Source: Streptomyces violaceusniger Tu 4113
Lineage (GTDB): Bacteria > Actinomycetota > Actinomycetes > Streptomycetales > Streptomycetaceae
Assembly (NCBI RefSeq): GCF_000147815.2
Contig: NC_015957.1
Span: 5,828,001-5,892,000, forward strand
Direction: 5' to 3'
Length of the DNA stretch: 64,000 bases
In this document: one piece after another, positions 12,344-30,509 of the stretch
How positions within the stretch are numbered: position 1 is the stretch's first letter
How the letters are laid out: each line of letters opens with the position of its first letter
Notes under the pieces: generated by a model
Databases searched by the model: none
What the model was told of the DNA's origin: nothing
What the model saw: only the letters and a program-made list of their open reading frames with translations
Translations under genes and position numbers: made by a program

Positions 12344-13450
12344 TCACATCGGGGCATCACACCGGGCCACCACCCGGTAGGCGTTGGAGACCTTCCCCCA
12401 CCCCGCCAGCGGCTTGAGCAACAGCCGGTCCAATGTGGTCGCGAGGACCAGCGCGGGGACGGCCGCGAGCAGCAGCGCACAGCGCAGCAGCCAGCGCGCG
12501 CGGCCGGGCGGTCGCGGCAGCGAAGGGGCGTCATCGGGCGGGATGACCGCGTTCAGTGACAGCCATACGGCGCCCAGCAGATCGACGGTGTCGGACGGCT
12601 CGCGGTGCTCCTCGGCGATGACGGTGAAGCCGAGCGCGTCCAGTTCCTTCCGGAGGTTCGCCACCGGCAGGAAGTGCAGATGCTGGGGCTGGAGCCAGGG
12701 CAGCCAGAAACGGCCGAGGAGCCGGGCGAACCAGCACTCCGGATCGGGCACCTCGATCAGCAGATGGCCACCGGGGCGCAACGCCCGCCGGGCCGCCCGC
12801 AGTTCGGCGCGGGGATCGGCGCTGTGCTCCAGATAGTGGAACATGCTCACCACGTCATAGCTCCCGGCCAGGCTCTCCTCGGCCAGTTCGGGGAAACTGC
12901 CACGGATGCCCCGGTCTATGCGCCCTGTCCGCTCGGCCAGTTCGACGCCGTCGGTGAAGTCCAGTCCGTCGAAGCGGGTGGCGGGGAAGACGGTACGGGC
13001 CACCGCGGGGAAGTGGCCGTGTCCCGTGCCGACATCGAGCCAGGTCTTCGGGGGCTCTGCGGAGGGCTCCTGGAACATCGCGCGCCGCCGGTACACCTTG
13101 TCCCGCCCGGCGAAGAGGTTGCCGAGTTCGATCTCCCCCATCCCGTCGTAGAAGTCGCGGTAGTAGAACTCCAGGCCGTCGCCGTTCAGCCTGGGGTTCT
13201 GGAAGACGTGGCGGCACTCGGCGCACGCCTCGAGCGCGAAGTGGCCCGGCTTGCTCTGGTAGCGGTCCCTGGTGCGCAGCCGCCGCTTCAGCCGCGTCGA
13301 GCCGCACCACGGGCAGTCGGTACGGCGCGGTTCGAAGAACCGCCCGGTGCCCCGCGCCAGATCGTCCTGGTAGCGGGGGCGCAGCGCGGCGACGGTCTCG
13401 GCGCGCGACGGCTTCGCGGGCGTACGTGGTGCGTCGGACGTGCGGCTCAT
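12344..13450 (-). CDS. SAM-dependent methyltransferase with zinc-ribbon N-terminus
   Basis: A 368-residue protein and the last gene of the synthase operon. Residues about 45-85 hold two cysteine pairs (CPWCGSTRLKRR and CAECRHVFQNPRL) in a zinc-ribbon arrangement seen in methyltransferases acting on sugars or lipids. The Rossmann methyltransferase domain follows: SAM motif TWLDVGTGHGHFPAVAR, then YDVVSMFHYLEHSADP and LRPGGHLLIEVPDP. A C-terminal hydrophobic segment (WLLRCALLLAAVPALVLATT) could anchor it to the membrane. Its ATG overlaps the glycosyltransferase stop by 4 nt, implying coupled translation. I infer methylation of the sugar or lipid made by this operon. Confidence 0.83.
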   Translation of the reverse strand: MSRTSDAPRTPAKPSRAETVAALRPRYQDDLARGTGRFFEPRRTDCPWCGSTRLKRRLRTRDRYQSKPGHFALEACAECRHVFQNPRLNGDGLEFYYRDFYDGMGEIELGNLFAGRDKVYRRRAMFQEPSAEPPKTWLDVGTGHGHFPAVARTVFPATRFDGLDFTDGVELAERTGRIDRGIRGSFPELAEESLAGSYDVVSMFHYLEHSADPRAELRAARRALRPGGHLLIEVPDPECWFARLLGRFWLPWLQPQHLHFLPVANLRKELDALGFTVIAEEHREPSDTVDLLGAVWLSLNAVIPPDDAPSLPRPPGRARWLLRCALLLAAVPALVLATTLDRLLLKPLAGWGKVSNAYRVVARCDAPM

Positions 13451-14712
13451 CGGTCCCCCTCGGGAGTCGGCGTGGCATGGCCATCGGTCTTCGCGGCCAG
13501 CGCTTCCAGATGTCCGGCTGCCGCGACGGCGCCGCCCGCCGCGCGGAACGAGGCCCCGACGTGCTCAGCGGCGATGCGGTACCCCGGCTCGTACAGGACG
13601 GTGTCCAGCGCCTCGCCGAGCCCGGCCGCCCTCGCCCGGCCGAACCTGACGCGGACGCCCGCGCCCGCGTCCACCACCTGCGCGGCCACCACCGGCTGAT
13701 CGTCCCGGATGGGGGCCACGACGAGCGGTACGCCGTGCCACAGGGTTTCGCAGACCGTGTTGTGGCCCGCGTGGCACACCACCGCGCTCACCCGCTCCAG
13801 CAGGGGGAGTTGAGGGATGTAGCGGCGCACCAGGACGTTCTTGTCGTCCGGGGTGTCCGGGGTGCCCGGGGTGAGTACGCCCTCCGGGTCGACGATGACC
13901 GTCTGGAAACGACCGGCCCGGGCGCGTACTGCCTCCCGGCACTCGGTGAGAAAGCGCGCTCCGGCGTCGGTGTTCGCGGTGCCGAGCGTGACCAGGACGG
14001 CCAGGCGCGCGGGGTCCAGCCACTCCCAGGGGAAGTCCGTCGTGGCCGGCCGCTCGGCGATCGACGGGCCCACGTAACGGATGCGGTCGCCCGCCCGGGC
14101 CGGTCGTCCGGCCAGTTCCTCGGTGGTGAAGGCCAGGACCAGATCGGGTGAGAACCGGGGATCGGCCGTGCTCTCCGGATCGCCGATCCGGCCCCGCACC
14201 TCGTCCATTTGCCCGTCCAGCCAGGCGTCGATCTTGGGCAGACCGTCCAGCGCGCCCGTGAACTCCGCCGAGGTGGTGGCGGATGTGGCCCAGCGCACCC
14301 CCAGCCGTTCGGCCACCAGTCCACCCGCCACGGTCTGCTGGTCGGCGATCACCACATCGGGGCGGAACTCCTCGATGGCCTTGGCGACGCCCGGGGCCAT
14401 GGCCTCGGCGAGTGGCACCAGGAACCGCTCCCACAGGAACCTCAGCGCCGCCGGGCCGCGTACGTCCGGTGGCCGGCCCGCCCCGCCCTCGCCCAGCACC
14501 GGCCCGGCACAGCGGTAGACCGTCGCCCCCTGCCCGGTCAGCCGCCCGACGACCTCGGGCATCCCGGCCCAGGCCACCTGGTGTCCCCGGGCGGTCAGTT
14601 CGGCCGCGACGCCGAGGGTGGGGTTGACGTGGCCGACCAGCGGGGGCACGACGAAGAGAAAGCGGCGGGGTATGCGGGGTGGGGCTGCCTGCGATCTGCT
14701 GGGGTCGCTCAT
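13447..14712 (-). CDS. GT1-family (MGT-like) glycosyltransferase
   Basis: A 421-residue GT-B glycosyltransferase like the macrolide/lipid-type GT1 enzymes. The N-terminal acceptor domain starts RRFLFVVPPLVGHVNPTLG with the catalytic-type His in GHVNP. The C-terminal donor domain carries VVCHAGHNTVCETLWHGVP and VVAPIRDDQPVVAAQV, the sugar-nucleotide-binding region. The ATG at 14710-14712 is chosen because it overlaps the hydrolase stop (ATGA) and begins the natural N-terminus; an upstream in-frame extension runs through the hydrolase gene. It probably attaches a sugar to the operon product, which is the best evidence that the product is a glycolipid or glycosylated polyketide. Confidence 0.87.
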   Translation of the reverse strand: MSDPSRSQAAPPRIPRRFLFVVPPLVGHVNPTLGVAAELTARGHQVAWAGMPEVVGRLTGQGATVYRCAGPVLGEGGAGRPPDVRGPAALRFLWERFLVPLAEAMAPGVAKAIEEFRPDVVIADQQTVAGGLVAERLGVRWATSATTSAEFTGALDGLPKIDAWLDGQMDEVRGRIGDPESTADPRFSPDLVLAFTTEELAGRPARAGDRIRYVGPSIAERPATTDFPWEWLDPARLAVLVTLGTANTDAGARFLTECREAVRARAGRFQTVIVDPEGVLTPGTPDTPDDKNVLVRRYIPQLPLLERVSAVVCHAGHNTVCETLWHGVPLVVAPIRDDQPVVAAQVVDAGAGVRVRFGRARAAGLGEALDTVLYEPGYRIAAEHVGASFRAAGGAVAAAGHLEALAAKTDGHATPTPEGDR

Positions 14713-15659
14713 GAGGCATCGGCCCCCCAAGCCTCCAGGGACGCCCCCGCCGCCGGGGCGCCGGTGCCCGGTTCGCACCCGTGGATCCAGGACAGCAGCA
14801 GTTCGCGGATGCGTATGGGCGCCTCGGCGAGGACCGAATGCCCCTGTCCCGGCAGGACGACGGTCCGGGTGCCGGGCAGTACCGATTCCAGCCACCGCTC
14901 CTGCCCGGCGAGTTCGGAATCGGCGCCGTAGACGGCAAGCACCGGGCAGCGCACCGCGCCGACCTGCTCCTCGCTCACCACCCGGCTCTCCGGTACGTCC
15001 TCGGCGATGGTGGTCGTACGGACAAGGCGGGCGGCCGACTTGGCCAGCCGCGCGGTGTGGGCGCCCCGGTGGGCACTGACCCAGGCCAGCGACTCGGCCT
15101 CATGGACGACCAGTTCGGTGACGACGCGCCGGAGGATTCCGCTGATCTCGGTCAGCCAGCTCTCGGTGGCGGGTTTCGCCTCGATCACCGCGATGCCGGC
15201 CACCCGCTCCGGATGGCGCATGGCGTAGGCGAACGCCACCGTTCCGCCGAAGCAGTTGCCCACCAGATGGACCGGCCCTGTGATGTCCAGCCGGTCGAGC
15301 AGCCGCTCCAGATCGGTGACGAACGTGTCCAGCCGGTAGCCGGAGCCGGGGCGCTCGCTGCGGCCGTGTCCCCGCTGGTCGTACATCACCACCTCCAGCC
15401 CGGCGGCGGCGAGGTCCGGGGCCACCGTGAAGTACCAGCTGGCGAGGGAGTCGGTGAGCAGACCGTGGATGAGTACGGCGGTGGCGGTGGGCGGACGGCC
15501 GTCGGGTGGGGACAGCCGCTGGACATGCAGTCGGACGCCGTCCGGCCCGGTATCCGGACCGGCGTGGTCCGTGGCGTGGTCCGCGTCGTGGCCCGTACCG
15601 CTGCCTGTGCCGCTGCCCGGGCAGTCGCAGGTGCCGCGGCCGGTGTCGATCATCGCCAT
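14709..15659 (-). CDS. Alpha/beta hydrolase with Cys nucleophile (possible offloading thioesterase)
   Basis: A 316-residue alpha/beta-fold hydrolase. The oxyanion strand is AVLIHGLLTD, followed by MYDQRGHGRSERP. The nucleophile elbow reads VGNCFGGTVAF, so the usual serine of GxSxG is a cysteine (TGC codon, clear in the DNA). Asp in VYGADSEL and His in PGQGHSVLAE complete a Cys-Asp-His triad. About 40 N-terminal residues are low-complexity Gly/Asp/His/Thr. It lies in the synthase operon, 3 nt after the ACP gene and overlapping the glycosyltransferase start. By position it may release the acyl chain from an ACP, but this is inferred; neither synthase contains a thioesterase domain. Confidence 0.82.
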   Translation of the reverse strand: MAMIDTGRGTCDCPGSGTGSGTGHDADHATDHAGPDTGPDGVRLHVQRLSPPDGRPPTATAVLIHGLLTDSLASWYFTVAPDLAAAGLEVVMYDQRGHGRSERPGSGYRLDTFVTDLERLLDRLDITGPVHLVGNCFGGTVAFAYAMRHPERVAGIAVIEAKPATESWLTEISGILRRVVTELVVHEAESLAWVSAHRGAHTARLAKSAARLVRTTTIAEDVPESRVVSEEQVGAVRCPVLAVYGADSELAGQERWLESVLPGTRTVVLPGQGHSVLAEAPIRIRELLLSWIHGCEPGTGAPAAGASLEAWGADAS

Positions 15660-15662
15660 GGG

Positions 15663-15989
15663 TCAGCTCTCCCCGGCTGCCCTGAGGCTCCGCACGACGT
15701 ACTCGACGAGTTGCCCCACGGCGAGGTCGATGATCTCGTCGAGCTCCAGACCCGCCACGAACTCGGCGAAGTTGACCTGTCTGCCGTACCGGGCTTCCAG
15801 GCTGCCGGCCAGCGCCACCAGGTCGATGCTCTCCAGCTCCAGATCCTGGGTGAAGCGGGTCTGCATGGTGACCTCGATCTCGTCGAGGCCGTATTCGTCG
15901 AGCATGGTCCGGAGCATCCCGGATATCTCCGCGAGCACGGCAGGTGCGTCGGTGGGGGGTGCCGAGGCGGTCTGATTGACGGTGGTCAC
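15663..15989 (-). CDS. Free-standing acyl carrier protein
   Basis: A 108-residue acidic ACP. The phosphopantetheine attachment site is the serine of DLELESIDLVAL, within a four-helix domain covering about residues 20-95. Its GTG overlaps the stop of the KS-AT-DH gene by 4 nt (GTGA), so the two are translationally coupled. The motif differs from the LSIDSIKRAEI motif of the integrated ACP in the larger synthase, so the two carriers may serve different steps, for instance chain elongation and delivery to the hydrolase. Confidence 0.92.
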   Translation of the reverse strand: MTTVNQTASAPPTDAPAVLAEISGMLRTMLDEYGLDEIEVTMQTRFTQDLELESIDLVALAGSLEARYGRQVNFAEFVAGLELDEIIDLAVGQLVEYVVRSLRAAGES

Positions 15990-18900
15990 TGATCGCTCTC
16001 CTCGTCCTGTTCCTGGTGGTCCGGGCCGGTCGTCCAGGCCACGGCGTAGTCCCTGTCCGGCAGTCCGGGAGGGTTGGCGATGGTGATGCAGTGGATCTGG
16101 TAGCGGCGCGGGCGCTGACCGGGGGCGGTGGCCGCCGTCTCGACGATGAGCCGGGCCGCCGGTGCCGCGTCGCTTTCAGCGGCTCCCGGCTGTATTTCGG
16201 CGATGGTGAGGTCACGTGGCCGGGTGCGCGAGCCGGTGCCCTCCGCCGTGGCGACCGCCTCCTTCGCGGCCCGGAAGGTAGTGGCCCAGCGGGCGTGCGA
16301 GCCACCGCGACCGGCCGTCGCGGCGGCGAGGAGTTCCCGCTCGGCCCGTCCGAAGGCGGCCGCGAGTGCGTGGTCGTCGCGGTCGGCGACCTCCTCGATG
16401 GCGATACCGGGGCCCGGGGCGCCGTGCGCGCGCGGCACCACCAGGGCGACCCCGGCCTCGGCCCGATGTGCCAGCGAGAGGGCCAGTTCGGGCAGGATCC
16501 GGCCGTGGACGCCGATGGCGTACGGGCGCCCCTGGGCGTCGTCGCGTATCCCGATCTCGGCGGGGAAGACCGGGCCTTCGCCGTGGTCCCAGAGCCATCG
16601 CCGTACGGCGTCCTTGGCCGCGATCCTGCCCAGCAGCCACTGTCTGCGGCCACGTGGCGGCTGGTGTTCATAGGCGATGCGCTCGTCGCTGCCCAGGTGG
16701 TTACGCATGATCAGGTCGCGGGAGGCCAGGTCGGGCCAGCGCTCATGGAGCAGCACCCAGCCGCCCGGCTGGGGCCGGGAGAGCGTGTTGTGCTGTGGGA
16801 AGCGCTCCACGGGACGGGTGTCGGGGTGGTTGTCGAACCGGCGGTCCTGCCAGCCGGACAGCTCCGCCCACACCTCGCCGCCGATCAGCAGTTGTGCGTC
16901 GGCCTCCAGCGCGGTATCGGTCAGCGAGGTGATCCTGATCAGGCACTCCACCGGTGTGCCGGGGCGCGGTTGCGGGCCGAAGAAGCGCATCAGACGCATG
17001 CCGACCGGGAAGACCACGGTCCGTTCGGTGCGGGTCGCCATGATCCAGTAGCCGAGGAGCTGTCCGACGTTGTCCAGCAGCGCTCCGGGCGCGGGAGGCG
17101 TGGTGATCGTGCCGCGTATGTGCGACTCGCCGATCGCGGTGAGGGCGGTGAGCCCCTGAAAGGCCGGGCCGTGGAACATCCAGCGCTCGGCGTAGACGAG
17201 ATGTGCGGTGTGGTCGGGGGTGCGCTCGGTGGCGGGGTCGGTGGGCCAGGGGGTGGGGCGGGTCGCGGGGTGGTGGGTGGCGACTTCCACGGTGGCGCGG
17301 GCGCTGCGGCCGAAGGTGACGGTGTAGTGGGCCGCCGAAGTGGGGGTCGCGGTGACGGGTACGGTGCTGGGGGGTGCCGCCGTCACCCACTGGTCGAAGC
17401 GGGCGCCGTGGACGGCGACGGCCACCGGGTTGCCCGCCGTGTGCTCCGCCGCTGTGTGCTCCGCCGCGTCCATGAGGTGCTGGACGATCGTGGTGGCCGG
17501 GACGACGGGCCAGCGGTCCGACTCATCGGGCCAGCCGGGGTGTTGGGGGAAGAAGCAGTGGTCGTGGAGGTAGGGCATGGTCTCGGTGGAGACCTGCAGA
17601 TCGTGGGTGCGCGGGGTCGGTGGGCGGCTTGCCGCGATGACCGCGGTCGCGGTGGTGGCGGTCTCGTCGAGCAGGGCGAGTAGTTCGGCTTCCCACGGGT
17701 CGGACGGCAGGTGCGGGGGCGCGCCATGGGGTGTGCTCGCCGTTGCCGGGTGCGGGTGGGGTGGTGCCCACCCGTTCCGCCCGGGGGGCACCTCCCGGCG
17801 GTAGCCGGGCGAGGAACGATTGCCCACCACGTTGCGCAGCTCGCTCAAGCGCGGCTCGTCGAGCGAGATCAGTGAGCCGTTCAGGTCCAGCCGTACCGGA
17901 GGAAGCGTGGGTGTGGGGCGCGAGGCTTCACGCGACAGCGTGGGGTCCACCTCCGCCCCCTCCGTCCACAGGGCCGTGGCCACGCGGCGGAGCTGGGAGA
18001 TGCCGTCGCGGTGGGGGGAGTTGGCGGCCACCACCAGGTGGTCGCGGCCGTGCAGCGTGTCGCCGATGAGCGACCCCAACTGGCCCGTGCCGACCTGGAC
18101 GAACGCGCGGAAGCCCGCCTCGTACAGGGCCTCGGTCAACAGCCGGAAGCGCACCGGCTCCAGCAGGTGGCGGATGAACAGCTCGCGCACCTCTGCCGCG
18201 GTCGCCGGATACGGTGCGGCGGTCGTCCCGGACCAGACGGGGATCCTGGGCGGCAGGAGCAGCTCGAAGCGTTCCGTCACGGCTCGGATGGGGTCGAGGT
18301 AGGGCGCCAGCATCGGGGTGTGGAAACCGGACTGGAAAGGCAGGAGCTGCGCGATCACGCCCTCGGCGCGCAGGGCCCGGACGAGCTCCTCGACATCGTC
18401 GCGCGGTCCGCACACCATCGACTGGCTGGGCGCGTTGTCGTGCGAGAGCACGATCCGGCCGTCTGCCCGCGCCTCCAGCTCCGCGAGCACCCGTGGCGCA
18501 CCGGCGCCGAGGACGGCGAAGGCCAGGCCGGGCACCCGCAGCGCGTCGGGGTCGAAGGAATCGAGGAAGGCGTCGACCTCCTCGCCCGCGTAGAGGCCGC
18601 CCACGGCCAGCGCGGTCCACTCCCCCACGCTGTGCCCGGCCACCGCGTCCGGTACGACCCCCATGCGCCGCAGCGCCGCGTCCAGCAGTCGGCCGACACC
18701 GAAGACACCGACGCCATGGCGGCCGATGTCGCCCACGCGGGCCGCCTCGCCGAAGCGGTCCCCGGCGGGGCGGGAGAGCCCGAAGTACTCGGCGACGCCG
18801 TCCACGCGGGGGACGAACTCGGCTTCGAGGCCGGGGAAGACGAAGGCGAGCTTTCCCGTGGCCGCCTTTCCCGTGGCCGCCCTTCTCGTGGTCGCCCTTC

Positions 18901-20629
18901 CCGTGGCCGCGTCGCCCGTGGCCGCCGGGCCCGCGCCGAGCAGCGGCGCGGGGGTGAACCAGATGTCGTTGCGGCCACGCCAGGGGCGCCCCTTGGCCAC
19001 CATGCGCCGGGCGAGCGCGAGCCGTTTGGCGGTGGGGTCGACGATGCCCAGCCGGGTACGGGCGTCCCGCCCCGTCACCGTCGTCCGTACGGTAGCGTCG
19101 TCCGCCGCCAGCAGCTCGGCAAGCCGTTCCGGGGTGTCCGCGGCCAGCGCCAGCACCCGCTCCGGTTCGATGACGACGGTCGTGGCGCGCTGCGCCACCG
19201 GCACCGGAACCTGCTCCAGCACCACATGGGCGTTGATCCCGCCGAATCCGAAGGCGTTGACGGCGGCGCGCCGTACGGGCGCCTCCCAGGGCTCGGCCGC
19301 GCCGAGCACCGAGAAGCGGGTGGCCGCCAGCGCCGGATGGGGATCGTCGCAGTGCAGGGTGGGCAGCAGCCGGGCGTGGTGGACCGCGAGGGCGGCCTTC
19401 ACCAGACCGGCCACACCGGCGGCGGGCATGGTGTGGCCGATCATCGACTTCACCGAGCCGATGACGGCCGTCTCACCTGGCGTGCCACCAGTGCCGAACA
19501 CCGCTGCCAGCGTGGCGAGTTCGGCCGTGTCCCCGGCGGGCGTCGCGGTGCCGTGCGCCTCCAGCAGCCCGATGGCGCCCGGCTCGCGCGGATCGAGGCC
19601 CGCGGCCCGCCATGCCTGTCGGACGGCTCGGGTCTGACCGCCCGGGTTCGGGTTGACCAGGCCGGTGGCACGGCCGTCGGAGGCCACACCGGTGCCGCGG
19701 ATCACCGCGTAGACGCGGTCGCCGTCGCGGAGTGCGTCGTCGAGCCGCTTGAGGACGACCACACCGGTGCCCTCGCCGATCAGCAGGCCGTCGGCCGCGC
19801 GGTGGAAGGGCCGGATCCGCTGGCTCGGCGACAGCGCGCGCAGTTGCGAGAACACGCTCCACAGAGTGATGTCGTGGCAGTGGTGCACCCCGCCCGCGAG
19901 CATCACATCGCACCGGCCCGAAGCCAGCTCCCCCACCGCCTGGTCGACGGCGACGAGCGAGGAGGCGCAGGCGGCGTCCACGGTGTACGCGGGGCCACGC
20001 AGATCGAGGCGGTTGGCGATGCGCGAGGCGGCGAGGTTGGGCACCAGGCCGATGGCCGCCTCGGGCCGGTCCGGGCCGAGCCGCTCGGTGAACGCCGCCC
20101 GTACGAGGTCGAGTTGGCCGGGGCCGAGGTCGGGCAGCAGCTCGCCGAGGGTCCGTACGAGCTGGTGGGCGGTGCGCACCCGCTGGTCGAGCCGGACCAG
20201 CCCGGGGGTGAGATAGCCGCCCCGGCCCAGCACCACGCCCACCCGCTGCCGGTCGGGGAGCCGGTCCTCACCGCCCGCGTCGGCGATGGCCGCCGCCGCG
20301 ACGCCCAGGGCGATGAGCTGGTCGGGTTCGGTGCCGGACACCGAGTTCGGCATGATCCCGAACCGCGCGGCGTCGATCCGGGCGAACTCGTCCACGAACC
20401 CGCCCCGTCGGCAGTACACCCGGTCGGGCGCCGCGGGCGTGTCGCCACCACCGTCCGGGGCGTAGAAACCGGCGTCCCACCGCCCGGCCGGGACGTCGCT
20501 GATGGAGTCCACGCCACCGACCAGATTGCGCCAGTAGGTGTCCAGGTCCGGGGAGCCGGGCAGCAGCACGGACATGCCGACGATGGCCACCGGCGGCTGC
20601 CGGTGCGCCTGCTCGTCCGTCACGCTCAC
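15986..20629 (-). CDS. Iterative type I synthase: KS-AT-DH-PPTase
   Basis: A 1547-residue protein. The ketosynthase (about 12-465) is intact: Cys221 in DAACASSLVAVDQA, His in EAHGTATPAGD and His in MIGHTMPAAGVAGL. The acyltransferase (about 590-875) has GHSVGEW and a SGFH motif that suggests malonyl. A dehydratase-like domain (about 1015-1265) shows YLHDHCFFPQ and LLDNVGQLLG, the DxxxQ partner motif. The C-terminal 200 residues are an Sfp-like phosphopantetheinyl transferase (GIAIEEV and TTFRAAKEAV), but the first Mg-binding Asp is Ala. There is no internal ACP, KR or thioesterase. A five-copy 15-nt repeat lies in the KS-AT linker. The DH-PPTase end recalls enediyne and Pfa synthases. The GTG start overlaps the upstream gene by 4 nt. 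Confidence 0.9.
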   Translation of the reverse strand: MSVTDEQAHRQPPVAIVGMSVLLPGSPDLDTYWRNLVGGVDSISDVPAGRWDAGFYAPDGGGDTPAAPDRVYCRRGGFVDEFARIDAARFGIMPNSVSGTEPDQLIALGVAAAAIADAGGEDRLPDRQRVGVVLGRGGYLTPGLVRLDQRVRTAHQLVRTLGELLPDLGPGQLDLVRAAFTERLGPDRPEAAIGLVPNLAASRIANRLDLRGPAYTVDAACASSLVAVDQAVGELASGRCDVMLAGGVHHCHDITLWSVFSQLRALSPSQRIRPFHRAADGLLIGEGTGVVVLKRLDDALRDGDRVYAVIRGTGVASDGRATGLVNPNPGGQTRAVRQAWRAAGLDPREPGAIGLLEAHGTATPAGDTAELATLAAVFGTGGTPGETAVIGSVKSMIGHTMPAAGVAGLVKAALAVHHARLLPTLHCDDPHPALAATRFSVLGAAEPWEAPVRRAAVNAFGFGGINAHVVLEQVPVPVAQRATTVVIEPERVLALAADTPERLAELLAADDATVRTTVTGRDARTRLGIVDPTAKRLALARRMVAKGRPWRGRNDIWFTPAPLLGAGPAATGDAATGRATTRRAATGKAATGKLAFVFPGLEAEFVPRVDGVAEYFGLSRPAGDRFGEAARVGDIGRHGVGVFGVGRLLDAALRRMGVVPDAVAGHSVGEWTALAVGGLYAGEEVDAFLDSFDPDALRVPGLAFAVLGAGAPRVLAELEARADGRIVLSHDNAPSQSMVCGPRDDVEELVRALRAEGVIAQLLPFQSGFHTPMLAPYLDPIRAVTERFELLLPPRIPVWSGTTAAPYPATAAEVRELFIRHLLEPVRFRLLTEALYEAGFRAFVQVGTGQLGSLIGDTLHGRDHLVVAANSPHRDGISQLRRVATALWTEGAEVDPTLSREASRPTPTLPPVRLDLNGSLISLDEPRLSELRNVVGNRSSPGYRREVPPGRNGWAPPHPHPATASTPHGAPPHLPSDPWEAELLALLDETATTATAVIAASRPPTPRTHDLQVSTETMPYLHDHCFFPQHPGWPDESDRWPVVPATTIVQHLMDAAEHTAAEHTAGNPVAVAVHGARFDQWVTAAPPSTVPVTATPTSAAHYTVTFGRSARATVEVATHHPATRPTPWPTDPATERTPDHTAHLVYAERWMFHGPAFQGLTALTAIGESHIRGTITTPPAPGALLDNVGQLLGYWIMATRTERTVVFPVGMRLMRFFGPQPRPGTPVECLIRITSLTDTALEADAQLLIGGEVWAELSGWQDRRFDNHPDTRPVERFPQHNTLSRPQPGGWVLLHERWPDLASRDLIMRNHLGSDERIAYEHQPPRGRRQWLLGRIAAKDAVRRWLWDHGEGPVFPAEIGIRDDAQGRPYAIGVHGRILPELALSLAHRAEAGVALVVPRAHGAPGPGIAIEEVADRDDHALAAAFGRAERELLAAATAGRGGSHARWATTFRAAKEAVATAEGTGSRTRPRDLTIAEIQPGAAESDAAPAARLIVETAATAPGQRPRRYQIHCITIANPPGLPDRDYAVAWTTGPDHQEQDEESDQ
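18852..18926 (-). repeat. 15-nt tandem repeat in the KS-AT linker
   Basis: Five copies of a 15-nt unit (consensus TTTCCCGTGGCCGCC on the plus strand) lie in frame within the synthase gene and encode repeated Ala/Thr/Gly/basic residues (GRATTRRAATGKAATGK). It is a flexible interdomain linker that may vary in copy number between strains. Confidence 0.75.
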
Positions 20630-23600
20630 CAGCCCGAGGCGGTGTAGACGACGGATCCGGTGGACTCCCCGCCCCAGGCCAGCTCGCGCAGCAGCGCCAG
20701 CGTGCCCTCCTCGGGATCGATGAGCGAGATGCCGCGCCGGGCGTACTCGCGGCCCAGCTCCGGTGTGACCATCCCGCCATGGGCGCCAGTCGGTGCCCAG
20801 GGGCCCCAGTGCACGGTCAGCGCCCGGCGGCCGGTGCGGTCCCGCCAGCGCGCGCCGAGGGTCTCCAGCGTGTCGTTGGCCGCCGCGTAGTCCACCTGGC
20901 CACGGTTGCCGAGGGCGGCGGCGATGCTGCCGAACAACACGGCGAACGCCGGGGGTTCGGACAGCTCCGCCAGCGCGTCCAGCAGCGTCCGGGCCCCCTC
21001 CACCTTGGTGCCGTACACCCGTTGGAAGGACTCGGCGGACTTCTCCGCGATCAGCCGGTCCTCGATCACACCGGCCCCGTAGACGACACCGTCCAGCCGT
21101 CCGTGGTCGGCGTGGATCTGCTTCACCGCCTGGAGCACCGCTTCGGCGTCGCGGAAGTCCACCGAGCGATAGCGGACCCGGCCGCCCACGGCGGTCAGCT
21201 CTTCGATGGTGGCGGCGACCTCCCGCCGCGCCAGGATCCGGGCGGCCTCCCGCTGGATCTCGGCGGGCCCCAGACCGCCCCGGGCCGCGAGCGCCGTGCG
21301 CAGGGCCGTCTCATCGCGGGCCCCTGCGGTGGCCGGGTCCTCGGAGCCGACGGGCTCCGGCGTACGGCCGAGCAGCTCGATCCGGCAGCGGGCGGCGGAC
21401 GCGAAGGTGGCGGCGCACCGCGCGGTGATGCCCCGCGCCCCGCCGACCAGCACCACCACCGCGTCCCGGTCCAGGCCGAGCGCGGCGGCCTCCGCCGCGC
21501 CGTCCCCGGCGGGCCCGGCGCCCGAACCGGCGAGCGCGCCCAGCGGGGTCTCCACGAGGTCCAGCCGGTGGCGCCGCCCTTCCGCGGTGCGCAGCACGAC
21601 GGGCGTACGGTCCGGGGCAAGCAGCTCATCGAGCAGACCGTCGGCCACGGCGTCGGCAAAGCGGGGCGCGTCGGTGGGATCGGGCGCTGCGGGGGAACCG
21701 GGCGTGTCGCCGGAACTGGCCACGCGTGCGGACCCGATCGCGTCGGTGGAATGGGCCACGTCGGTGGAACCGGCCGCTTCGGCGGCACCAGGTGCTTCGG
21801 CGGAACCGGCTGCGTCGGTGGACCCAGCCACCTCGACCGCACCGGCCACCTCGACCGCACCAGGTACGTCGGCGGACCCAGCCACCTCGACCGCACCGGC
21901 CACCTCGACCGCACCAGGTGCGTCAGCGGCACCGGCCATGTGTGCGGGCCCAGCCACCTCGGCGGGGAACTCCACCAGCCTGGTGACCATGTCCGGGTAC
22001 TCCCTGGCCACCGTGCGGAAGACCCCGCGCAGCCCGGCCGTGCGTGCGGCGAGCGGGTCGGTGCGGCGAAGCGCCAGCAGCCAGTGCGGGGCGCGCCGCA
22101 GGGCCGACTGGAGGGCTGTGAACGCCTCCGGCAGCACCGGCGCGCCGGAAGTGGCCAGCGGGTCGAGCAGCAGCACACCGTCCACCCGGCCGTCGTCCTC
22201 GGTGAGCGGATGCCCGGCGGCGAGGTGGACGGCCTCGGCACCGCGCTCGCCGAGACGGGCGGCCACCGCCTCGGCCACCCCGTCACCCCTCCCGCCGAGC
22301 AGGGCGAAACGCCGGCCGGTCAGATCGGGCGGTGCGGTGGCACCGTCGTCGGGTGCGCCGAGGGGCACGGGCACCAGCCGCAGCCGTTTGGGCGCCACAC
22401 CGGACACGGCCACGGGCTCGGGCTCCGGCTCGACCACGGCAACGGGCTCGGCCGCCACGTCCTCGACCACCGCCGCCCGTTCGTCGGGCGGTGTGGCGGA
22501 GGCCGCGGGGGCGGGGGAAAGGCGGGCGGTGAGCCAGTCGGTGACGGCGGTGGTGGTACGGGCCTTGGCCAGCTCCTCCAGCTCCTCATCGCCCAGGGCG
22601 GCGGTGTCCGCGCCCGCGACACCGAGGCGCCGCGCCAACTCGCCCGCGATCTCGGCGCGTTTGATGGAGTCGATGCTGAGATCGGCTTCGAGGTCGAGGT
22701 CGGGTTCGATCATGTCGACCGGATAGCCGGTGCGTTCGCTGATGATCTCGGAGACCGCGCGCAGCACATCGGGCCCGGTGGCGGGTGCGGGCGAAGCAGA
22801 TGTGGGAGACACGGCGGCGACCGGCACGGCGGCCCCTGGGGTGACGGCCCCTGAGGTGACGGCCACCGCGGCAGTGGCCACCGGCGCGGCGGCCACCGGG
22901 CCGAGCTCGGCGGGTAAGGGTGCGGCCGTGGCGACCGGAGCCGGTGGCGACGCGTGCCGTTCGCCCGGCGCGCCGCCGAAGTAGGTGAGAAGCACATCGC
23001 GCTGGGCGGCGATCATCTCCCGGCTGGTCCTCAGGAACTCCGAGATCAGGGCGTCCCTGCCCCCGTACTCGCCGCCACCCGTCCGATCGGTCTGGCTCAC
23101 GGTCGCCTCCATGACACGTCGGGCCGGTGCCAGCGCACCGGGAAGGAGCTCACCGTCCGCGGTGCGGACCAGGTGTCCGTCGACCGTCCAGCCGGGCCGT
23201 TTCGGTGGCGGGGCGGATCCCGCCGCCACCGCGTCCCGGCCGTGGAACAGCCAGGCCGTACGCACCGGAACACCGGCGACGGCCAGCCGGGCGAGAGTGT
23301 CGAGAAATCCCCGCGGTCCGGCGGAGCCGGTACGCCGTCCCTCGCAGGCGAGGGCGAGGTGCGGACGGCCGTCGAGGATCTCCCCCACCAGCCGGGTGAG
23401 CACCGTCCCCGGACCGGCCTCCACGAAGATCCGCGCGCCCGCCTCGTACATGGCCTCGATCTGCGCCACGAAGCGGACGGGCGCGCCGATCTGGGCGGCG
23501 AGTTCGGCGCGGATGGCGTCCGGCTCCGCGCCGTGCGGGGCGGCGGTGCGGTTCGCCCAGACGGGGAACTCGGCCGCACGCACCGGATGGCGGGCCAGTG

Positions 23601-26600
23601 CCTCGGCGAACCGCGCACCGGCCCCGGCCACCAGTGGGCTGTGGAAGGCGCAGGCCACCGGGACCCGTTTGACCGAGTGCCCGGCCGCCCGCAGCAGCCG
23701 TACCGCCTCCTGGATGTCCCGCTCGGGCCCGGAGATCACGGTCTGCCGTGGCGCGTTGTGGTTGGCGGTCACCACGCGCTCGGCGAGCCCGGCCGCTCGC
23801 AGCACCGGCTCGACCTCGCCGGGGGGCGCGGTCACGGCCGCCATGGTGCCGGGCTCGTCCCCGGCGGTCTCGGCGGCGCCGAGGATGGCGGCCGCCCGCT
23901 CGGCGCTCAACTGTGGCAGCGTGCGGGGGTCGAGGGCGCCCGCGGCGCACAGTGCGACCAGCTCGCCGTAGCTGTGTCCGGCCGCCATGTCGGGCCGGAC
24001 TCCGGCCGAAGTCAGCAGGGTGTACGCGGCGAGCCCGACCATGCCCAGTGCGGGCTGGGCCACCCGGGTGTCGGTGATGGCGGTGCGCTGCACCGCCTGC
24101 CCGGCCTCGTCGAAGGCGGCCGGGGGATACAGCGCGTCGGTGTAGGCGCGTCCGTGGCGCAACTGGCGCTGGAGTTCGGGGAAGGTGACGAAGGCGTCGG
24201 CGAACATCCCGGGCCGCTGGCTGCCCTGCCCGGGGAAGAGGAAGGCGACCTTGCCGCGCTCCGGCTCGCCCCCAGCCTCTTGGGCCGCGTCCGGGGCGAT
24301 GTGCAGCCCGTCCGTTCCGCGTGGCCCCGGGCCCGGCGGATCGCCCGCGAGCACCTGCCGTAATCGTGCGGCCAGGTCGTCCAGGTCCGAGGCCACCACG
24401 GCCACCCGGGCCGGCTCCTGCCCGGCGTCGGCCCGCCGGGAGGCGGTCAGCGCGACGTCGCGCAGCCGCCATGGCCGTCCGGCCGTGTCATTGGCCATGA
24501 GCTGGTCGAGTGTCTCCTGGACCACCCGCAGCGCCGCCGCCCGGTCGGCCCCGCGGAAGAGGAACAGCTCGGCGGGCCAGGCGTCCAGGCCCTGTGCGGG
24601 TGGCGCTCCCCGGCCGTGTGCCGCCAGCACCACATGGAAGTTGGTCCCGCCGAAGCCGAACGCACTGACACCGGCGACCCGTTCGGCGGGCGCGGCGGCC
24701 CATGGCCGGGCCCGGGTGTGGAAGGCGAAGGGGCTGCGGTCCGCGTCCCATGCCTCGTTGGGCCGGGTCAGATGCAGTGTCGGCGGTGTGATGCCCGTGT
24801 ACAGCGCCATCGTGGCCTTCACCAGTCCGGCGAGCCCCGCGGCGCATTTGGTGTGCCCGATCTGGGACTTCACCGAGCCCAGCGCACACCCGCCCGGTGC
24901 GGCCCCGGCGGCGGTGAACACCTCGCCCAGGACGGTGAGTTCGGTGCGGTCGCCGACGACCGTGCCGGTGCCGTGTGCCTCGATCAGGCCGACGTCGGCG
25001 GGCGAGAGGTGGGCATTGGCGTACGCGCGCTCCAGGGCGGCCCGCTGTCCCTCGGGGCGCGGGGCGGTCAGCCCGAGCGAGCGGCCGTCGCTGGAGGAGC
25101 CGACGCCCTTGATGACGCCGTAGACGCGGTCGCCGTCCCGTTCGGCGTCGGCCAGCCGTTTGAGGACGACGCAGGCGACGCCCTCGCCGAGCGCGATTCC
25201 GTCGGCCGAGCTGTCGAAGGTGCGGGAGCGGCCCGTCGGGGAGAGGGCGTGCACCGAGGAGAAGAGCACATAGTCGTTGATGCCGTTGTGCAGATCGGCG
25301 CCGCCGCACAGTACGAGGTCGCTGGTGCCGGCGGTCAGCTCTTTGCAGGCCACGTCCACGGCGGCCAGCGATGACGCGCATGCGGCGTCCACGGTGTAGT
25401 TGGCGCCGCCGAGGTCGAGCCGGTTGGCGATCCGCCCGGAGATGACGTTGGCGAGCATGCCGGGGAAGGAGTCCTCGGTGAGCCGCGGGAGCTGGTCCAC
25501 GAGGTCCCGCGGCACCTCGTGGACGTAGCGCGGCAGGACGGCGCGCAGCGTCTGGGCGTTGGACAGATCGCTGCCCGCCTCGGCGCCGAACACCACGGAG
25601 GTGCGGGAGCGGTCGAAGGTCCGGCCACCGTCCCCGGGGGCACCGTATCCGGCGTCGTCCAGGGCCCGGCGGGCGGCCTCCAGGGCCAGCAGTTGAACGG
25701 GTTCGATGCTGCCGAGCGAGGCCGGGGGGATGCCGTAGCGCAGTGGGTCGAAGGGGACGGGTGGCAGGAAGCCGCCCCATTTGGAGGCGGAGGCGCCGTC
25801 CTTGTCGCCCGTGTAGTGGACGGCCGGGTCCCAGCGCTCGGCGGGCACTTCGGTGACGGCGTCCACACCGCCCACCACATTGGCCCAGAACGAGGCGAGG
25901 TCGGGCGCCTGCGGAAACATGCACGCCATGCCGACCACGGCCACCTCCAGCGGCGCGGGCGCCTCGGCCTCCGCTGGGGCCGAGGCCACGCCCAGGCGCT
26001 CGCACACCGCCTCGGCGCGTGCGGTGAGGAAGTCGGCGGCGCCGGGGCCCACCGCATGGTGCAGGGCGCCGATCGTGGTGGTGGCCGAGCGCAGCACGGC
26101 GACCTGCCCGGCCATGAACATCCCGCCGCCGAGCTGGTGTTCCTCGTCGACCGAAGTCAACGCGCCGTCGGGCCCGCGGTCCATGCCCTTGCTGGCGATC
26201 CTCAGCCGTCCCACATTCAGCCGCTCCAGCCGCTCCCAGACCTCCCGGTCCGGCAGGCCCTCGTCCCGCAGCCGTTCCTTGACGGTGTCGAAGCTCTCGG
26301 TGAAGGGGCTGGGCACGCAGCGTGTGGCATGGCCGGGGGCGGTCTCCAGCAGCACGGTGTGCTCGGCGGCCACCACGTGGCGCTGGAAAAGCGGCTGTAC
26401 GGCGCCGTGTGCCACGGCCTCCTCGGTGAAGAGATACGCGGTGCCCATCAGCGAGCCGACGGCGACGCCGCGCCGGGTGAGCGGGGCGGCGAGCGCGGCC
26501 ACCATCGCGGCGGAGCGTTCGTCGTGCACTCCCCCGGCGAAGAAGATCTCGATACCCGCGCCGTCGGTGTCGTCAGCCCCGGCGGTCCCGTCGGTGTCGT

Positions 26601-28020
26601 GAGTGTTCGCCGTATGACGCGGGTCGTGCGCGGTGTCGTCGAGGAAGTCCTCGACGACGGCGATCTGGGCCTCCCATAACGGGAAGCTGTTGCGCGGCCC
26701 CACGTGGCCGCCGCATTCGGAGCCCTCGAAGACGAACCGCCGGGCCCCGGCCTGGAGGAACTGGCGCAGCAGCCCCGGCGAGGGCACATGCAGAAAGGTG
26801 GCGATGCCGTCCCGCTCCAGCGCCTTGGCCTGGGACGGCCGTCCGCCCGCGATGATGGCGTGGCTGGGGCGGATCTCCCGTACGGCCTCGAGCTGGGCGT
26901 TCCTGATCTCCTCGGGTGAGAAGCCGAGGACGCCGACGCCCCAGGGGCGTCCGTCCAGCGCGGCCGCGGCCTCCTCCAGCATGGTGCGCGCCTGCTCGCG
27001 TCCGGCCAGGGCGAGCGCGATGAACGGCAGCGCTCCCCCGGCGGCGACGGCGGAGGCGAACGCGCCCTGGTCGCTGACCCTGGTCATCGGGCCCTGCGCG
27101 ATGGGCAGCCGGGTGCCGAGGCGGGTGCTCAGCGGGGCGCCGGGGCGCAGCGCCGAGACGGCGGAGCCGTTCCGTACGGCCTCGTGCGCGGCCTCCCGGA
27201 TGGCGTCGGTGATGCCCCGGACGGTGCGGCCCGCATCCCGCCATCGCTCGGCGAACCGGGCTGCCAGAAAGCCATCCTGACCCACCGTCAGATTTGGCTC
27301 GATGTGCTGCGTGGCGCGCCCCCGGCGCCGCAGGACGCGGCGCCCGTCCAGCACGGTGGTCTCGGAGCCGTCCATGGAGCGGATGGCGGCGGCCCGGTCC
27401 TCCGGGAGCCCCGATTCGGCGAGCAGGGCGAGCTGAGTGTCGAGCACGACCCCGGCCGCGCCGCCGAGTACGGACGCCGCGGCAGTGTGTGGGCCGATGC
27501 CGCCGCAGGCCCACACAGGTAAGGGCACCCGGGGGTCGGCGAGGAGCCGCTGCAGCAGGACGAAGGTGCCCAACGCCCCGATCCGCCCGCCGCTCTCACT
27601 GCCCCGGGCGATCAGCCCATGCGCTCCGGCGCGGACGGCCTCGAGCGCCTCGTCCGGGTCGGTGACCTCGGCCAGCACTCGGCAGCGGTCGGAGACGGCC
27701 TCCACCGGCCAGGGCGAGTCCACCCCGAGCACCACCGTATGCGGACCGGGCGCGCCACCCACTGGGCCGCCGGTGGCCCGGGCGTCCGGCAGGTCCGCGG
27801 GGGTCAGGCGGCAGCCTGCCGCGACCCGCACGCCGTACCGCCCGTCGGCCACCCACTCGCCGATGTCCTCCCACGCCTGGAGGGCCTCACGGCCCGTTGT
27901 TCCCAGGTCGAGAACGCCGAGACCGCCCGCGCGGCTGACCGCTGCGGCGAGTCTGGCGTCCGGTTCCCCGAAGGGAGTGATGCCGATGACAAGATCGCCG
28001 GCGTCCACGGCGGATGACAT
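20626..28020 (-). CDS. Giant type I synthase: NPD-NPD-KS-AT-ACP-KR
   Basis: From the ATG at 28018-28020 (GGAG eight bases upstream) this is 2464 residues; an upstream GTG at 28131 lacks a ribosome site. Residues about 8-300 and 300-640 are two halves resembling nitronate-monooxygenase/PfaD-type FMN enoyl reductases (ARGSESGGRIG with VWACGGIGPHT; EGSECGGHVGPR with IFFAGGVHDE). The KS (about 690-1130) has Cys881 in DAACASSLAAVD, EAHGTGTVVGD and SQIGHTKCAAG. The AT (about 1260-1560) has GHSYGEL and CAFHSP, malonyl-like. The ACP (about 1765-1850) carries LSIDSIKRAEI, the motif of Pfa and enediyne carriers. The KR (about 2180-2420) has LVGGARGITA, LFGSIAAALG and VDYAAAN. An 18-residue repeat sits before the KR. 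It probably starts the operon. Confidence 0.9.
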   Translation of the reverse strand: MSSAVDAGDLVIGITPFGEPDARLAAAVSRAGGLGVLDLGTTGREALQAWEDIGEWVADGRYGVRVAAGCRLTPADLPDARATGGPVGGAPGPHTVVLGVDSPWPVEAVSDRCRVLAEVTDPDEALEAVRAGAHGLIARGSESGGRIGALGTFVLLQRLLADPRVPLPVWACGGIGPHTAAASVLGGAAGVVLDTQLALLAESGLPEDRAAAIRSMDGSETTVLDGRRVLRRRGRATQHIEPNLTVGQDGFLAARFAERWRDAGRTVRGITDAIREAAHEAVRNGSAVSALRPGAPLSTRLGTRLPIAQGPMTRVSDQGAFASAVAAGGALPFIALALAGREQARTMLEEAAAALDGRPWGVGVLGFSPEEIRNAQLEAVREIRPSHAIIAGGRPSQAKALERDGIATFLHVPSPGLLRQFLQAGARRFVFEGSECGGHVGPRNSFPLWEAQIAVVEDFLDDTAHDPRHTANTHDTDGTAGADDTDGAGIEIFFAGGVHDERSAAMVAALAAPLTRRGVAVGSLMGTAYLFTEEAVAHGAVQPLFQRHVVAAEHTVLLETAPGHATRCVPSPFTESFDTVKERLRDEGLPDREVWERLERLNVGRLRIASKGMDRGPDGALTSVDEEHQLGGGMFMAGQVAVLRSATTTIGALHHAVGPGAADFLTARAEAVCERLGVASAPAEAEAPAPLEVAVVGMACMFPQAPDLASFWANVVGGVDAVTEVPAERWDPAVHYTGDKDGASASKWGGFLPPVPFDPLRYGIPPASLGSIEPVQLLALEAARRALDDAGYGAPGDGGRTFDRSRTSVVFGAEAGSDLSNAQTLRAVLPRYVHEVPRDLVDQLPRLTEDSFPGMLANVISGRIANRLDLGGANYTVDAACASSLAAVDVACKELTAGTSDLVLCGGADLHNGINDYVLFSSVHALSPTGRSRTFDSSADGIALGEGVACVVLKRLADAERDGDRVYGVIKGVGSSSDGRSLGLTAPRPEGQRAALERAYANAHLSPADVGLIEAHGTGTVVGDRTELTVLGEVFTAAGAAPGGCALGSVKSQIGHTKCAAGLAGLVKATMALYTGITPPTLHLTRPNEAWDADRSPFAFHTRARPWAAAPAERVAGVSAFGFGGTNFHVVLAAHGRGAPPAQGLDAWPAELFLFRGADRAAALRVVQETLDQLMANDTAGRPWRLRDVALTASRRADAGQEPARVAVVASDLDDLAARLRQVLAGDPPGPGPRGTDGLHIAPDAAQEAGGEPERGKVAFLFPGQGSQRPGMFADAFVTFPELQRQLRHGRAYTDALYPPAAFDEAGQAVQRTAITDTRVAQPALGMVGLAAYTLLTSAGVRPDMAAGHSYGELVALCAAGALDPRTLPQLSAERAAAILGAAETAGDEPGTMAAVTAPPGEVEPVLRAAGLAERVVTANHNAPRQTVISGPERDIQEAVRLLRAAGHSVKRVPVACAFHSPLVAGAGARFAEALARHPVRAAEFPVWANRTAAPHGAEPDAIRAELAAQIGAPVRFVAQIEAMYEAGARIFVEAGPGTVLTRLVGEILDGRPHLALACEGRRTGSAGPRGFLDTLARLAVAGVPVRTAWLFHGRDAVAAGSAPPPKRPGWTVDGHLVRTADGELLPGALAPARRVMEATVSQTDRTGGGEYGGRDALISEFLRTSREMIAAQRDVLLTYFGGAPGERHASPPAPVATAAPLPAELGPVAAAPVATAAVAVTSGAVTPGAAVPVAAVSPTSASPAPATGPDVLRAVSEIISERTGYPVDMIEPDLDLEADLSIDSIKRAEIAGELARRLGVAGADTAALGDEELEELAKARTTTAVTDWLTARLSPAPAASATPPDERAAVVEDVAAEPVAVVEPEPEPVAVSGVAPKRLRLVPVPLGAPDDGATAPPDLTGRRFALLGGRGDGVAEAVAARLGERGAEAVHLAAGHPLTEDDGRVDGVLLLDPLATSGAPVLPEAFTALQSALRRAPHWLLALRRTDPLAARTAGLRGVFRTVAREYPDMVTRLVEFPAEVAGPAHMAGAADAPGAVEVAGAVEVAGSADVPGAVEVAGAVEVAGSTDAAGSAEAPGAAEAAGSTDVAHSTDAIGSARVASSGDTPGSPAAPDPTDAPRFADAVADGLLDELLAPDRTPVVLRTAEGRRHRLDLVETPLGALAGSGAGPAGDGAAEAAALGLDRDAVVVLVGGARGITARCAATFASAARCRIELLGRTPEPVGSEDPATAGARDETALRTALAARGGLGPAEIQREAARILARREVAATIEELTAVGGRVRYRSVDFRDAEAVLQAVKQIHADHGRLDGVVYGAGVIEDRLIAEKSAESFQRVYGTKVEGARTLLDALAELSEPPAFAVLFGSIAAALGNRGQVDYAAANDTLETLGARWRDRTGRRALTVHWGPWAPTGAHGGMVTPELGREYARRGISLIDPEEGTLALLRELAWGGESTGSVVYTASGW
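21821..21928 (-). repeat. 54-nt tandem duplication in the ACP-KR linker
   Basis: A 54-nt unit is repeated nearly exactly twice (21821-21874 and 21875-21928), encoding an 18-residue Val-Glu-Val-Ala-Gly-type unit (VEVAGSADVPGAVEVAGA). Shorter degenerate copies (AGSTDAAGSAEAPGAAEAAG) continue on the left. The whole segment forms a long low-complexity linker of about 100 residues before the KR. Confidence 0.75.
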
Positions 28021-28502
28021 GTTTTCTCCGAAAATCGCTAGCGCAGCAGGAAAGGGAGATAATTCGGGCAACGCATGTCGAACGTATGGCACGGGAATCT
28101 CGCGAAACGGCGCGGGGCTGAAATTAGCCACTTCATTACTGAAGAGTCAACAAGCAGTCGCAAGCCCGCGGCGCGACGGGCTGATTCTCGCCAGACGCGA
28201 AGACATCGGTGGCGTTGCAACCTCCTCCCCTCTGTTAAATCTTCATATATCTCAGGTGAAAGAGATCACTGCCGAAGGTATGCCGGGGCGCATGAGTGAA
28301 CCTTGATTGCGCCTTAACCTGCGCGGACTCCAGATCCCGATTTCGCTGTCGCGAATTTCGTGTACAGGCAGAAGAGGCGGGGTGGCCCGGGCGGGCGGCC
28401 ACGCCTCCCGCGATGGGTTCCCCAAGGTGCACCCTGGAAGAAGGACGGCATCGTTCGACGGGTCCGCACTGTACGCACCTGGCCGAAGGAGGAGGACTGG
28501 GG
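28021..28502. other. Divergent promoter region of the synthase operon
   Basis: These 482 bases separate the minus-strand synthase operon from the plus-strand phosphoribosyltransferase fusion. They are distinctly more A+T-rich than the flanking genes (for example around 28070-28150 and 28225-28265), as expected for regulated promoters. I see no clear palindrome or convincing -35/-10 pair, and no gene. Confidence 0.5.

Positions 28503-30509
<2,007 letters not shown>

Follow-up and report, generated by a model that had tools for sequence, protein, structure and literature searches.

A probable Type M secondary lipid synthase and its tailoring genes in Streptomyces violaceusniger

Introduction

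Type M was set out in 2011 by Shulse and Allen, among the types of secondary lipid synthase with uncharacterised products (PMC3098273). The members given there are from Frankia, Actinosynnema mirum, Renibacterium salmoninarum, and Streptomyces avermitilis. The Renibacterium cluster has fused pfaDA and pfaBC genes with a PPTase, and in 2026 its synthase was still called uncharacterised (PMC13291983). Our literature search, which most subscription papers lie outside of, turned up no product of any Type M cluster from actinobacteria.

Type P includes the synthases of Beijerinckia indica ATCC 9039 and Azotobacter vinelandii, which make the alkyl chains of phenolic lipids (PMC3098273). ArsA is described as supplying type III PKSs with C23-C25 fatty acids (PMC4824345).

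Here, we analyze a 64,000-nucleotide stretch of DNA from Streptomyces violaceusniger Tu 4113 (the window; contig 3, 5,828,001-5,892,000, of a genome of 11.14 Mb). We think, with modest confidence, that six of its genes belong to one biosynthetic unit, in which a Type M synthase would make a reduced very-long chain and tailoring enzymes encoded beside it would glycosylate and methylate this chain. The basis for the unit is its gene set, gene order, conservation, catalytic motifs, and relationships. The family has been known since 2011; what we offer is a sharper prediction of the product. Kinship to the Ars kind of synthase gives a concrete prediction (a reduced very-long chain, glycosylated) instead of a PUFA or hglE-style label.

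Results and discussion

Six packed genes with two large synthases

The operon comprises six tightly packed genes (28020-12344), all of them open reading frames with coding-type GC3. (Coordinates are positions in the window, on the minus strand unless stated otherwise.) These encode a large synthase that we call SynA (20626..28020; 2464 amino acids from the ATG at 28020); a second one, SynB (15986..20629; 1547 amino acids); a free acyl carrier protein or ACP (15663..15989; 108 amino acids, Pfam PP-binding); an alpha/beta hydrolase (14709..15659); a GT1-type glycosyltransferase (13447..14712); and a class I SAM methyltransferase (12344..13450) with four Cys residues in an N-terminal motif and a hydrophobic stretch close to the C-terminus. 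An earlier reading of this DNA, made from the sequence only, had named the same gene set, and the open reading frames and Pfam bear it out. Four of the five gene junctions overlap by 4 bases, and the ACP and hydrolase genes are 3 bases apart. The glycosyltransferase most likely starts at the ATG at 14712, which gives 421 amino acids, and not at the listed GTG at 14895.

SynA has the domain order NPD1-NPD2-KS-AT-ACP-KR, with Pfam matches to NMO (nitronate-monooxygenase-like, equivalent to NPD), KS, AT, PP-binding, and KR. The sequence-only reading had proposed this order for SynA and KS-AT-DH for SynB, and Pfam agrees. Both NPDs match FabK-type enoyl reductases of solved structure (residues 1-250 and 290-680). 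NPD1 (27301..27996) is a FabK-like barrel in which the E-x-GGH motif lacks its His, while NPD2 (26281..27123) is a FabK-like enoyl reductase that keeps it. The His of the ECGGH motif matters in FabK. We audited these residues in 13 SynA proteins: the window's, its paralogue's, and 11 from other Streptomyces genomes. NPD2 has the His of ECGGH in all 13. At the same position, NPD1 has Arg in 11 proteins and Pro in the other two, and the Beijerinckia protein has Gln. The other catalytic residues that we examined in the window's SynA are present: Cys-His-His in the KS (24769..25947), Ser and His in the AT (23272..24243; GHSYGE and CAFHS), Ser in the in-line ACP (22564..22758), and Ser/Tyr/Asn/Lys in the KR (20794..21462). 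The motif LSIDSIKRAEI, which had been noticed before, lies in this in-line ACP. (In one relative, L036, the KR end of SynA was not readable in the frame used.)

SynB has Pfam matches to KS, AT, and PS-DH. Its KS (19349..20593) has the Cys-His-His residues and its AT (17990..18862, outer limits approximate) has the motif GHSVGEW. The dehydratase or DH (16790..17581), which keeps its His and Asp, has a PKS-type double hot-dog fold, not a FabA-type one. The last domain is PPTase-like (16190..16648), with eroded motifs. The predicted structure of the DH and PPTase parts has a mean pLDDT of 82.7, and in Foldseek it matches PKS dehydratases, those of MAS-like and curacin synthases among them; all 50 of the matches listed are on the dehydratase part, and the PPTase part is assigned by sequence.

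Comparison with described types of synthase

As in the Type M cluster described from Renibacterium (PMC13291983), the window has a fused PfaD-PfaA protein and a fused PfaB-PfaC-PPTase protein, with the PPTase eroded. The Type M PPTase motifs hShxH (P1b') and x(G/D)xP (P1a), which are common to other types too, appear in the window as LSLAH and QGRP (PMC3098273). We consider the six-gene unit a probable member of Type M. It differs from the description of Type M in having tailoring genes: the words "glycosyltransferase" and "methyltransferase" are absent from the text of PMC3098273, so these genes are not part of the definition.

The window also resembles ArsA/ArsD of Azotobacter vinelandii and the Type P synthase of Beijerinckia indica, in which NPD-NPD-KS-AT-ACP-KR are in one protein and DH-PPTase in another. 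(We compared sequences with the Beijerinckia proteins; the likeness to Azotobacter is from its description.) SynA aligns with the synthase from the B. indica plasmid pBIND02 across both NPDs (2027 aligned columns, 39%), and the C-terminus of SynB aligns with the DH-PPTase protein encoded nearby (27%, E = 6e-38). A His-less NPD1 is common to SynA and the Beijerinckia synthase. By these comparisons, the closest relative with a known type of chain is the ArsA/ArsD kind. Type P clusters have type III PKSs between the synthase genes, whereas we recognised none in the window's operon or its annotated flanking genes, and the window's synthases are followed by the free ACP, the hydrolase, the GT1, and the methyltransferase. 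Also, SynB has an extra KS-AT that is absent from the Beijerinckia DH-PPTase protein, and this could mean that its chemistry is different from the Ars type.

The sequence-only reading had credited the two synthases with the full set of activities of a PUFA synthase, which does not hold up. SynA scores 872.1 bits against the PfaA model, below the cut-off of 1010.1. SynA and SynB together have one PP-binding stretch, one KS stretch per protein, and no CLF, and with a limit of E <= 5 (and HMMER's filters still applied) they have no FabA-like stretch, that is, no FabA-type dehydratase/isomerase. An over-cut-off PfaA cluster from a genus-mate, taken as a control, shows three stretches each of the PP-binding and FabA-like kinds, and its second protein contains more than one that is KS-like. 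PfaA is over the cut-off in 3 of 26 genomes of the genus; going by description only, these clusters are probably Type L. What SynA does have in common with the Streptomyces synthases of PfaA type is the order KS-AT-ACP-KR and a related KS.

PKSEs have KS-AT-ACP-KR-DH-PPTase in one protein, along with enediyne core genes. Here, the synthase domains are divided over SynA and SynB, and no enediyne core genes were recognised in the operon or the annotated flanking genes, as had been noted earlier. Heterocyst glycolipid synthases (HglE and partners), likened to the window by gene content alone, share the logic of a long-chain synthase with a glycosyltransferase.

To place the KS domains we used a tree of 40 sequences, comprising named Type P synthases, over-cut-off PfaA proteins from genus-mates, and modular KSs among others. 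The SynA KSs form one clade (support 100/99). Their nearest neighbor is a long-branched synthase from a Rhodobacteraceae plasmid (85/65), not Type P; the SynA KSs, this sequence, and Type P group together at 81/70. SynA, Type P, PfaA, and other plasmid-borne relatives form one group (94/93). The SynB KSs form a separate clade (100/100) without a fixed place in the tree. With the AU test, we compared trees that put our KSs in one clade with ten modular-group KSs (nine from modular loci, and that of L203, which falls among them). This was rejected for all the SynA KSs (p = 0.0011) and for SynA and SynB together (p = 0.0021), but only weakly for all the SynB KSs (p = 0.028). Grouping SynA with Type P alone was not rejected (p = 0.42). 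So, for the Pfa-like synthases of the sequence-only reading, a PfaA-like SynA outside the modular PKSs is supported, with its KS alongside Type P and over-cut-off PfaA, while for SynB the separation from them is weak.

We noticed some features of related clusters. The Type P cluster on pBIND02 (L177) has two genes annotated as 3-oxoacyl-ACP synthase III C-terminal proteins, which we read as type III PKSs. It also encodes the DH-PPTase protein, a set of ABC/RND-type exporters, and a glycosyltransferase. A synthase of 2391 amino acids from plasmid pSC52_2 of Rhodobacteraceae SC52 (L180), a further uncharacterised relative, matches SynA from NPD2 through the KS. Genes for a methyltransferase, a TauD-like oxygenase, and a protein that contains a PPTase lie near it.

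A common and probably mobile cassette

With the DH-PPTase region as query, 14 of 41 Streptomyces genomes (including this one) and 42 of 296 genomes of the class (11 of 114 genera) had relatives, and a collection of 84,980 species had 436 confirmed stretches. We compared gene order in the best 80 of the 436. In 69 of these 80 loci, all six genes are present on one strand and in the same order. Among the other 11, five start too near a contig end for SynA and one has no readable ACP; three lack the methyltransferase and two lack the hydrolase, which suggests that those steps are dispensable somewhere. The methyltransferase was also found in 11 of 12 further related loci. Since both the order and the sequences are kept in relatives, the six-gene arrangement is not due to chance.

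Conservation falls off downstream of the methyltransferase: the window's downstream neighbors have close matches in at most 3 of the 80 loci, all from close relatives (87-99% identity), and a few other matches (27-36% identity). The upstream border is harder to place, as the 80 loci scarcely extend beyond SynA. Upstream in the window is a divergent gene (28296-30509, plus strand), whose product joins a phosphoribosyltransferase domain to an erythromycin-esterase domain. It had no match in the roughly 1-3 kb of upstream sequence that 12 longer loci show, which is a weak test.

The same six genes are in a row on a linear 869-kb plasmid of Streptomyces sp. NBC_01243, with transposase genes nearby (the gene table is incomplete), and a second plasmid, from Streptomyces sp. 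NBC_00984, has matches to both SynA and SynB. Most simply, the unit is these six genes, and it is mobile. The cassette is common in Streptomyces, and with one copy sitting on a plasmid, deletion or transfer would be simple ways to look for its product.

We also saw variants of the arrangement. In one genome (G012; L041 and L195), the DH-PPTase stands alone with the ACP, hydrolase, glycosyltransferase, and methyltransferase, and a SynA-like synthase is about 47 kb away, so the cassette is split. In L033 and L075, the tight packing is broken between SynB and the hydrolase by an insert of about 1.4 kb, with a minus-strand open reading frame (399 amino acids in L033).

An eroded PPTase-like domain and a Cys hydrolase

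The sequence-only reading had also given SynB a PPTase activity. The domain is recognisable, but its PF01648 score is 18.7 bits, below the cut-off of 25, and its motifs are eroded: GI[D]xE is GIAIE, and in WxxKEAxxK, Trp has become Arg and the second Lys has become Thr. We take the scored positions to be metal and CoA ligands, by comparison with Sfp-type enzymes. All seven are kept in 77 of 93 DH-PPTase sequences, and the window is not among them. (The 93 include six pairs that are identical over the DH region and are probably the same genome twice. They also include L051, which is split by frame breaks and so is not evaluable but was counted as lost. L052 was too short and was left out, and the PPTase losses of L053 and L089, which have long branches, are possibly assembly faults.) The Asp-to-Ala change is shared with S. 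niphimycinicus, S. samsunensis, S. endocoffeicus, S. sabulosicollis, S. rugosispiralis, and S. iranensis, so it was inherited and is not a sequencing error. As judged from these alignments, the erosion of the motif is new here and is specific to the S. violaceusniger clade, and the fused PPTase of the window looks inactive.

For the P1-P3 half of this domain, the median ratio of pN to that of the DH is 1.83 within the clade (21 pairs) versus 1.36 among matched intact relatives (74 pairs), where the pairs are not independent of each other. By this measure, the P1-P3 half is less constrained within the clade than in the intact relatives. Clade members differ very little in the N-terminal half (median pN = 0.025).

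Downstream of SynB, the free ACP carries Ser 54, a residue kept by at least 95% of the 93 sequences compared. The hydrolase has the predicted fold of an ordinary esterase or thioesterase (mean pLDDT 86.7). Its nucleophile elbow has Ser in 75 of 91 sequences, and has Cys, as in the window (GNCFG), in the other 16. The apparent change from Ser to Cys in the window is new here, and a Cys nucleophile would favor acyl transfer.

Across the 93 sequences, the PPTase motif is lost and the hydrolase has Cys in 13; the motif is intact with Cys in 2, intact with Ser in 71, and lost with Ser in 3; and 4 have no readable hydrolase. On the tree, the Cys hydrolase needs 2 changes and the loss of the PPTase motif needs 5. 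A tree-based test of the two traits found only 1-2 independent pairs (sign test, p = 1). With so few independent events, we do not claim a link, and the overlap may come from shared ancestry. The eroded PPTase and the Ser-to-Cys change are two natural experiments that are open to biochemical testing.

Proposed pathway and alternatives

We propose that SynA and SynB work jointly as an iterative type I synthase. Judging by their motifs, the ATs would load malonyl units, the KSs would extend the chain, and the KR, the DH, and the FMN enoyl reductase NPD2 would reduce each unit. The result would be a very-long acyl chain on the in-line ACP, probably saturated or nearly so, as the Ars synthase makes for alkylresorcinol chains. 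The chain would pass to the free ACP, or straight to the alpha/beta hydrolase, which would release it or move it onto an acceptor. The glycosyltransferase would then add a sugar and the methyltransferase would cap it, if tailoring runs in that order. Since the fused PPTase looks inactive, the ACPs of the window's copy are probably primed in trans, by another PPTase in the cell. This proposal retains the glycosylated and methylated secondary lipid of the sequence-only reading, which fits the gene content.

Because the closest relative with a known chain is the ArsA/ArsD kind, we prefer a reduced very-long glycosylated chain to a PUFA or a polyene. We find it very unlikely that the locus is a true relative of PUFA synthases that makes a glycosylated cis-polyunsaturated fatty acid. 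A score of 872 bits with the PfaA model, the ACP motif LSIDSIKRAEI, and a SynA KS within the larger group that holds PfaA (94/93) would suit such an enzyme, but SynA is below the PfaA cut-off, there is one in-line ACP and no second, CLF-like KS stretch, and FabA-like stretches are absent at E <= 5, where the genus-mate PfaA cluster has three. The sequence-only reading had also allowed for a polyene. If the degenerate NPD1 meant that reduction is partial or skipped, then the product might be a conjugated, pigment-like polyene. Programmed skipping is known in iterative synthases, and the motif His of NPD1 is absent from all 13 SynA proteins. However, NPD2 keeps its His in all 13, the Beijerinckia Type P synthase has a His-less NPD1 as well, and ArsA, which is of the same type, makes C23-C25 fatty acids (PMC4824345), so we consider a polyene unlikely.

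The product might instead be a glycoside of a long alcohol, hydroxylated or of diol type, similar to the heterocyst glycolipids. Surveys of gene clusters would presumably give the window locus the label hglE-KS. Clusters with that label are counted in surveys of Streptomyces (PMC8510958), and the logic of a long chain plus a glycosyltransferase is the same, but the operon has no reductase gene for forming the alcohol, which makes this quite unlikely. Finally, the eroded PPTase domain could be a sign of a decaying cluster, which in the S. violaceusniger clade would make nothing. The motif is lost in the window and its clade, and the P1-P3 half changes faster relative to the DH (1.83 versus 1.36, from the non-independent pairs above). 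Yet in the window, the catalytic motifs that we examined in the KS, AT, ACP, KR, NPD2, and DH domains are intact, and the strong conservation of the N-terminal half of the PPTase also speaks against decay, so we regard it as highly improbable.

Returning to the reduced, glycosylated chain, a bolder version seems rather doubtful to us but is worth stating. It would be a mobile pathway with an Ars engine, in Streptomyces and other actinobacteria, for an undescribed glycosylated very-long-chain lipid; the S. violaceusniger clade would have outsourced the priming of its ACPs; and the release enzyme would have turned from a Ser hydrolase into a Cys acyltransferase. If true, the Cys acyltransferase chemistry would alter what the chain is attached to.

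A second Type M cluster and other synthases in the genome

The genome has a second Type M cluster, at about 7197000-7213400 of contig 3, with SynA, SynB, an ACP, a hydrolase, a glycosyltransferase, and an ABC half-transporter, which stands where the window has the methyltransferase. This SynB is about 66% identical to the window's over the KS-AT, and its PPTase has an intact motif (49.9 bits with PF01648). The whole genome has four PF01648 matches: the paralogue's and three more. We also considered that an intact paralogue might be the general rescue for the eroded PPTase. We searched 19 genomes: 15 (including the window's) that were picked because the hydrolase has Cys, the PPTase motif is lost or unreadable, or both, and 4 intact controls. 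Just 3 of the 19 have two Type M loci (the window's, S. niphimycinicus (L045), and L059, whose PPTase is intact), so we rejected this idea. The ABC version of the cassette is also found in 1 of 12 other loci (L040).

Elsewhere on contig 3 are two more synthases of two genes each, at 5540001-5556000 (L043) and 2929001-2945000 (L044), in which an AT-ACP protein lies beside a KS protein of about 2000 amino acids. The KSs of L043 and L044 pair in the tree on long branches, and the large protein of L043 also has SDR, KR, and DH domains.
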